In this document: positions 29,729-30,608 of the stretch, one piece after another
How the letters are laid out: each line of letters starts with the position of its first letter
How positions within the stretch are numbered: the stretch's first letter is position 1
Assembly: GCA_014376985.1 (NCBI GenBank)
Contig: JACMQM010000298.1
Span: 1-33,444, forward strand
Length of the DNA stretch: 33,444 nucleotides
Direction of reading: 5' to 3'
Origin: Cytophagaceae bacterium
GTDB lineage: Bacteria; Bacteroidota; Bacteroidia; Cytophagales; Cytophagaceae
Position numbers and translations under genes: made by a program
The notes under the pieces: model-generated
Seen by the model: only the letters and a program-made list of their open reading frames with translations
Told to the model about the DNA's origin: nothing
Databases searched by the model: none

Positions 29729-29750
29729 TTCTTCTTCGTTCAAATTTTGA

Positions 29751-29780
29751 AAACCGAACTCGTAAGGGTTCGGTTTTTTT
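29751..29780 (+). terminator. Intrinsic terminator of asd
   Basis: AAACCGAAC / GTTCGGTTT plus T-tract. Confidence 0.88.
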
Positions 29781-30025
29781 GTGTTCTATTAAAACTGTCT
29801 TGCCTCTAAATCCCCTAAAGGAGAATTCATATAAATGGATGGATATGGGCTACAGGACTTTCGTCCCTCCGGGACTAATAAGGAAAATAAAACTGATTGT
29901 ATCTTCTACAAGTCCCAGAGTGACGAAAGGCTTGTAGTAAACGAAATATATAAATAAGTAAATCCCTTTTAGAGCAATGTCGTTAAGTTAAGCAAATTGG
30001 TTTCATCGAGCACGAAATGATAAAT

Positions 30026-30063
30026 CCCAGTCTGACAAACAAAAAGTAGTCTGTCAGACTGGG
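30026..30063. repeat. 12-bp stem hairpin CCCAGTCTGACA / TGTCAGACTGGG
   Basis: Perfect inverted repeat 30026-30037 / 30052-30063. Confidence 0.9.
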
Positions 30064-30064
30064 T

Positions 30065-30084
30065 GTCAGGTCTGAAGACCTGAC
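30065..30084. repeat. REP-like palindrome GTCAGGTC-TGAA-GACCTGAC
   Basis: Perfect 8-bp stem with TGAA loop. Confidence 0.9.
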
Positions 30085-30124
30085 GCGGATGGAGTTAACG
30101 CTGACTACCTGCTATTGTCCAACA

Positions 30125-30148
30125 GTGTCAGGTTTGAAAACCTGACAC
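30125..30148. repeat. REP-like palindrome GTGTCAGGTT-TGAA-AACCTGACAC
   Basis: Perfect 10-bp stem with the same TGAA loop. Confidence 0.9.
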
Positions 30149-30608
30149 CAAAAAACAACAAGTATTGGAATCCCTTAACTTAACGACATTGCTCCTTTAT
30201 GGGATTTAGGGGTAATAGAGTTGTTTGATAAATAATATCTATTCCATGGCAGAAACACTATCGTTACGCATGCGATAGTCTTTTTCTTCGCTTTCCTTTG
30301 TTTATCCTGATGGAAAGGGAAATGCGCTTTAAATGTTTACGCCGATTAATAGACAACAGCCATACTTCAGCGCTTTAGAATGATCTTTTTCGGATCATCT
30401 CTTTGTTTATCCTGACGAGAACAAAATGTATAGTCATAGGCAGAATTTTGCACGTTCCACCCTTCAAGTCCACGTATATTTGTTTCATGAGAGATCTACT
30501 ATTTACAACGATCAAATCAACAACCCGATAGAATGACAAAGGCAATCCATTCGTCATTTTGAGAAGGTAAAGAGTTTTCATAACTTTAGAGAAATCTATA
30601 TCTATTCT

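Follow-up and report, generated by a model that had tools for sequence, protein, structure and literature searches.

REPINs and REPtrons are inverted doublets of short palindromes, present in many copies, whose palindromes also flank a Y1 transposase gene (RAYT, or TnpAREP; PMC3116915, PMC6006769, PMC3733652). The Bacteroidetes REPs of subclass 2.6 have been called atypical (PMC6006769). CGTC-type REPs have no dedicated transposase; they are palindromic, often stand in inverted pairs and enclose variable spacers (PMC3733652). Bacterial MITEs such as Chunjie, QMITE2 and BrickBuilt are short, non-coding, intergenic and multicopy, and have terminal inverted repeats (TIRs; PMC10969869). Among insertion sequences, those of the IS4Sa subgroup are 1150-1750 bp long, with ends of the form CA------T and target duplications of 8-10 bp (PMC2266710). 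One element placed in this subgroup is ISRm22 (PMC2266710), whose nine copies in Sinorhizobium meliloti lie within REPs (PMC1525189).

The locus described here lies between asd and yicC in a Cytophagaceae bacterium, in a window of 33,444 nucleotides (the whole stretch of DNA that was analysed). Its genome (G000) was compared with those of three congeners (G001, G002 and G003). Very probably, four dispersed mobile repeats, none of them coding for protein, have piled up between the two genes to form the 426-bp stack from 29795 to 30220. The layers and their surroundings are as follows:

29748-29780, plus strand: intrinsic asd terminator, not part of the stack, read directly as AACCGAACTCGTAAGGGTTCGGTTTTTTT; a similar terminator stands ahead of the repeat in congeners
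29795-29827, plus strand: outer repeat (layer 1), left arm, CTGTCTTGCCTCTAAATCCCCTAAAGGAGAATT; the genus has dozens of copies, most of them paired in inverted orientation
29850-29937, no strand given: GTCCC REP doublet (layer 2), REP 29850-29876 and inverted REP 29911-29937; self-pairs in the fold, and the REP type flanks Y1 genes
29959-29974, plus strand: outer right arm, first part, up to the MITE that splits it, TAAATCCCTTTTAGAG; can be aligned to the unbroken arm of G002 and is supported by the junction table
29964-29974: decayed target duplication, left copy, in the first part of the outer right arm
29975-30191, no strand given: MITE (layer 3), 217 bp, perfect 18-bp TIRs at 29975-29992 and 30174-30191; copies in G000 and G003
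30026-30063, plus strand: hairpin inside the MITE, CCCAGTCTGAC...GTCAGACTGGG (30026-30040/30049-30063); poorer pairing in copies C165 and C35
30063-30148, no strand given: TCAGG REP doublet (layer 4), REPs 30063-30084 and 30125-30148; many copies outside the MITE, flanks Y1 genes
30192-30202: decayed target duplication, right copy, at the start of the second part of the outer right arm
30192-30220, minus strand: second part of the outer right arm, CTCCTTTATGGGATTTAGGGGTAATAGAG; pairs with the left arm, compared with G002

An earlier note, made from the letters alone, had described a nested inverted-repeat element of about 410 bp (29803-30212) whose right terminus is complementary to two separate left segments. 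Both pairings exist where it placed them. The 21 nt that it quoted for the outer arm (29803-29823) pair with 2 mismatches, within outer arms of 31 nt that are 84% complementary (29793-29823/30192-30222), and the inner arms (29972-29992/30174-30194) form its perfect core of 21 nt at 100% complementarity. The nested element is thus real, but it reaches further out than the note had it, and of the inner left arm given as 29959-29992 only 29975-29992 is the terminal repeat proper (18 nt), whereas 29959-29974 belongs to the outer repeat, whose right arm breaks off here. The hairpins that it listed are present (a REP-like pair at 30063-30084 and 30125-30146, and another at 30026-30040/30049-30063), but the GTCCC doublet had been missed. 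As it also said, the stretch has no ORF, at least none of 80 aa or more.

None of 300 dinucleotide shuffles gave a perfect inverted repeat longer than 11 nt with arms 60 nt or more apart; the longest such repeat here measures 21 nt. Folding, which the note had proposed, gave z-scores for the stretch of -9.7 with DNA energies and -12.4 with RNA energies. Together these values exclude a chance origin of the repeats in 29795-30220. A predicted fold this stable under either energy set would also suit a resident regulatory or non-coding RNA locus, with the long stems as functional RNA structure, and the position downstream of asd is kept in three congeners. However, the terminator of asd precedes the stretch, and the contents differ from congener to congener and are made of dispersed repeats. 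A search of Rfam with the stretch returned no family at gathering score, only matches at chance level. A regulatory RNA was rejected on the lack of an Rfam match at that score and of conserved contents, and we consider it very improbable. Strict conservation and the lack of any other copies of the arms, which the note had named as telling against insertion, are not what is found: both arm types are multicopy in the genome and its relatives, and what lies between asd and yicC differs in the three congeners.

How the stack was built can be read from the same site in these relatives. In G002 the spacer between asd and yicC holds the outer repeat complete with the GTCCC doublet and an intact right arm, and no MITE; in G001 degenerate outer arms surround a different hairpin, and in G003 the contig stops just after asd. 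Since the outer repeat is intact at this site in G002, with no MITE, it came first and the MITE later, in the lineage of G000, unless the MITE was cleanly lost elsewhere. The successive insertions suggested in the note are supported by G002 and by the multicopy nature of both arm types, and the inner element at 29975-30191 is indeed a MITE with terminal inverted repeats. The two pairings of the right terminus follow from its composition, because it consists of the MITE end (30174-30191, pairing with 29975-29992) and the remnant of the outer right arm (30192-30220, pairing with 29795-29823). The latter also resembles 29959-29974, since the arm is palindromic and part of it was duplicated at insertion.

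Other repeats are found around these sites as well. A palindrome pair, GGCCTGTCCCCTGACAGGCC ... GGCCTGTCAGGGGACAGGCC, adjoins the outer repeat between asd and yicC in G002 (L079, G002:C132) and two single MITE ends in G003 (L110, L112). The GGAGTATGGAGCGCGAG hairpin, another interchangeable insert, recurs between the outer arms at asd-yicC in G001 and beside MITE ends in G003 (L080, L102, L104, L100).

The whole stretch might instead be a single composite MITE of about 426 bp, with the outer arms as its terminal repeats, that moved as a unit; the outer arms do pair across all of it. Against this, G002 has the outer repeat alone at the same site, and the MITE stands in different outer contexts at C165, C35, C77 and in G003. 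No second full copy was found in the genome, and with the outer part alone in G002 the composite was rejected; we consider it, too, very improbable.

The inner element, as a layer of its own, has perfect 18-bp TIRs, CAATGTCGTTAAGTTAAG, and is inserted in the right arm of the outer repeat. It has what defines a MITE, namely terminal inverted repeats, dispersed copies, a short length without a transposase gene, and a target-site duplication. Copies that align along the interior are found in G000 at C165 (217 bp), C35 (209 bp) and C77, and in G003 at C191, those at C77 and C191 being recognisable at one end only. The three other copies in G000 have about 90% identity, and more occur in G003, where different hairpins lie between or beside the same MITE ends. 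In the copies at C165 and C35 the hairpin stretch 30026-30063 pairs less well. As for the target-site duplications that the note had proposed to look for, a perfect one of 11 bp, CCCTAAAGGAG, flanks the MITE at C165 and a near-perfect one the copy at C35, but in the window it has decayed to 7 of 11 positions, so that insertion here rests on the other copies and on the comparison with G002. When the MITE and one copy of the duplication are removed at C165, an intact outer arm is restored. The orthologous spacers of G002 and G003 lack this MITE and contain other repeats. Tandem GAAACA repeats lie beside the C165 stack (L002, from about 2020) and at the orthologous sites in G002 and G003.

The ends of the MITE lead well beyond the genus. 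A 19-nt form occurs in at least 113 genome-contig stretches, mostly of Bacteroidota but also of Selenomonas, Methylococcaceae and others. Perfect target duplications of 9-11 bp flank 31 of 76 TIR pairs across taxa, compared with 0.6% when flanks were randomly re-paired; 30 of the 31 are 9-10 bp long and one is 11 bp. Three TIR pairs of IS size in other genomes (L126, L188, L200) enclose proteins above the cut-off for NF033592, the NCBIfam model for the IS4 family. The TIRs of the MITE are those of IS4-family transposons that occur throughout Bacteroidota and in other groups. The MITE end, CAATGTCGT, matches the form CA------T, and judged from the ends and the length of the duplications the parent was probably of IS4Sa type. 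In the four genomes of the genus, which are drafts and may lack repeats, neither Pfam PF01609 nor a protein query found an IS4-family transposase, and two relatives within the family have only distant ones (28-39% identical). Because no such transposase was found in the genus, we infer that the MITE was mobilised in trans, or else by an element that has since disappeared or is missing from the assemblies. No copy of the MITE was found in plasmids.

Two TIR pairs deserve mention in their own right. In a Selenomonas MAG (L148, 5451-6576) two of these TIRs, bounded by a perfect 10-bp duplication, enclose an entire histidine-phosphatase-like gene without any transposase; the gene seems to travel as a passenger between the ends of a MITE. 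A 1.7-kb pair (L198, 2383-4076), also with a perfect 10-bp duplication, has as its longest ORF one of 273 codons that is not transposase-like.

Within the genus the choice of target is narrow. At eleven sites, with two weaker matches left out (G000:C213 and G002:C122), 14 of 15 MITE ends abut the CCCCTAAAGGGG palindrome of the outer arm in the same register, ...CCCCTNAAGGG|CAATG. These 14 have scores of 10-20, compared with a 95th percentile of 8 and a 99th of 15 for random 25-mers from the same loci; lowest among them are the window's left end, with 11, and one end at G003:C44, with 10. The other end at C44, which scores 6, is the exception. Outside the genus palindromicity of the target is only mildly raised (a mean of 5.4 against 4.8 paired positions), and CC...GG at the edges of 9-bp duplications is a clear target bias, many of these duplications coming from one genome. 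That the MITE targets in the JABDBX genome are themselves repeats was not supported in the loci that were read.

The outer repeat consists of 29795-29974 and 30192-30220, with 33-nt arms, CTGTCTTGCCCCTAAATCCCCTAAAGGGGACTT, of which there are dozens of copies per genome in the genus. BLAST matches to the arm number 15 in G000 and 53-59 in each of the three congeners, and an independent pattern search gave 27 arms in G000. The arms face each other across spacers that are usually shorter than 300 bp and highly variable in content. Three sites can be compared between species: the outer repeat is present at G001:C31 where G002 lacks it, at G001:C54 where the three other genomes lack it, and at G000:C47 where G001 and G002 lack it. 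An autonomous element was rejected, as no transposase was seen between outer arms, a single long interval (2.8 kb, L308, with ordinary genes) having been read for genes. Nor was a cognate RAYT found: of 30 Y1 loci checked in the genus, not one has inverted outer arms on its flanks.

How this first layer arose is less settled than the nesting. The arms may be two REP-like singletons that landed, inverted relative to each other, on either side of native DNA (a terminator, for instance) without ever forming a transposable unit, an origin to which we give real but minority weight. It would account for interiors that vary widely, some with terminator-like hairpins, for the forward arms that have no inverted partner within 450 bp (11 of the 48 in the loci sampled), for the lack of a consistent target duplication at the copies, and for the 25-nt core that stands alone or as a tight doublet in other bacteria. 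Yet the other 37 of the 48 arms are paired, and the distance from the arm to the GTCCC doublet is alike in many copies. In either case the nesting is unaffected, as this alternative touches the origin of layer 1 only.

The core of the outer arm is found further afield still. A 26-nt form is identical in phytoplasma plasmids (L328, 453-478; L329, 701-726) and a Spirosoma plasmid (L330, 1501-1566), and a 25-nt form is present in eight viral contigs (L332-L339). Among 395 other Bacteroidota genomes, three contain the core within one mismatch. Such matches are not expected by chance and make the core, as a lead, a candidate travelling repeat. It is a tentative, even doubtful, suggestion that CCCCTAAATCCCCTAAAGGGGACTTT (25-26 nt) is an undescribed, widely travelled palindromic mobile repeat with a mobilising enzyme of its own, and that in this genus an IS4Sa-type MITE uses it as a dedicated place to land. 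It is worth noting that in several of the viral contigs the core, CCCCTAAATCCCCTAAAGGGGACTT(T), directly follows or overlaps an apparent stop codon.

Both REP doublets have the make-up of REPINs: inverted REPs with a short spacer, many copies, and the same REP flanking a RAYT-like gene (such genes being identified by Pfam Y1_Tnp only). The GTCCC...GGGAC doublet lies inside the outer repeat, and REPs of its type stand, inverted, on both flanks of the Y1 genes L259, L260 and L261 in three genomes of the genus (G000:C169, G002:C60, G003:C123), with 21 of 27 positions, counted by eye, common to the window's REP and the flanking ones. The TCAGG REP flanks the Y1 genes L262 and L270 (G000:C371, G003:C33), and elsewhere its doublet has many copies without the MITE; since it stands at the same place in the copies at C165 and C35, it may have come along with the MITE. 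As for the GTAG tetranucleotide that REPs may have at the base of the hairpin, GTAG/CTAC terminates the GTCCC REP as read, and none was seen at the corresponding place in the TCAGG REP. Outside the genus, a search of relatives in the same order gave one weak match to these REPs.

The order of events may then be put as follows. Comparison shows that the outer palindromic repeat, which two congeners have as well and which holds the GTCCC doublet, settled at asd-yicC first. Later the 217-bp MITE, which holds the TCAGG doublet, inserted within the CCCCTTTAGGGG palindrome of the right arm and split it. An IS4-family (probably IS4Sa-type) DDE transposase presumably acted in trans, binding the 18-bp ends and preferring palindromic targets edged with G/C. 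The Y1 (RAYT-like) transposases of the genus, whose genes have these REPs on their flanks, would have spread the doublets. A host function for the stack is neither needed nor shown.

Each layer is of a known kind: layer 3 is a MITE of an IS4-family transposon, layers 2 and 4 are REP doublets of the sort that goes with RAYT-like genes, and layer 1 is a dispersed palindrome that resembles a REP. The stack is an unusually legible and clear example of a known phenomenon, not a new system, and in it one can follow, one layer after another, the growth of intergenic spacers in a Bacteroidota genus as mobile repeats land in one another. For these particular families a literature search limited to the exact sequence and a few key terms found no description, the exact arm sequence giving nothing relevant. 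The occurrence of the outer core across phyla offers a starting point from which a new mobilising enzyme might be identified.

In comparison with the described systems, layers 2 and 4 are like REPINs in all the features named at the outset. The outer repeat may be likened to the CGTC-type REPs in its palindromes, its frequent inverted pairs, its variable spacers and in that no cognate transposase was found, but its arm is longer. The MITE is short, non-coding, intergenic and multicopy with TIRs, as Chunjie, QMITE2 and BrickBuilt are; unlike those, it has the ends of an IS4-family transposon, and its copies in the genus sit in one specific palindrome. It differs from IS4Sa elements in having no transposase gene and, at one perfect copy in the genus, a duplication of 11 bp. 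ISRm22 is the precedent for an IS4Sa member in REPs, although the host palindrome here is a different repeat, and the habit of IS elements, an IS4Sa member included, of targeting REP-like palindromes is hereby extended to a MITE.
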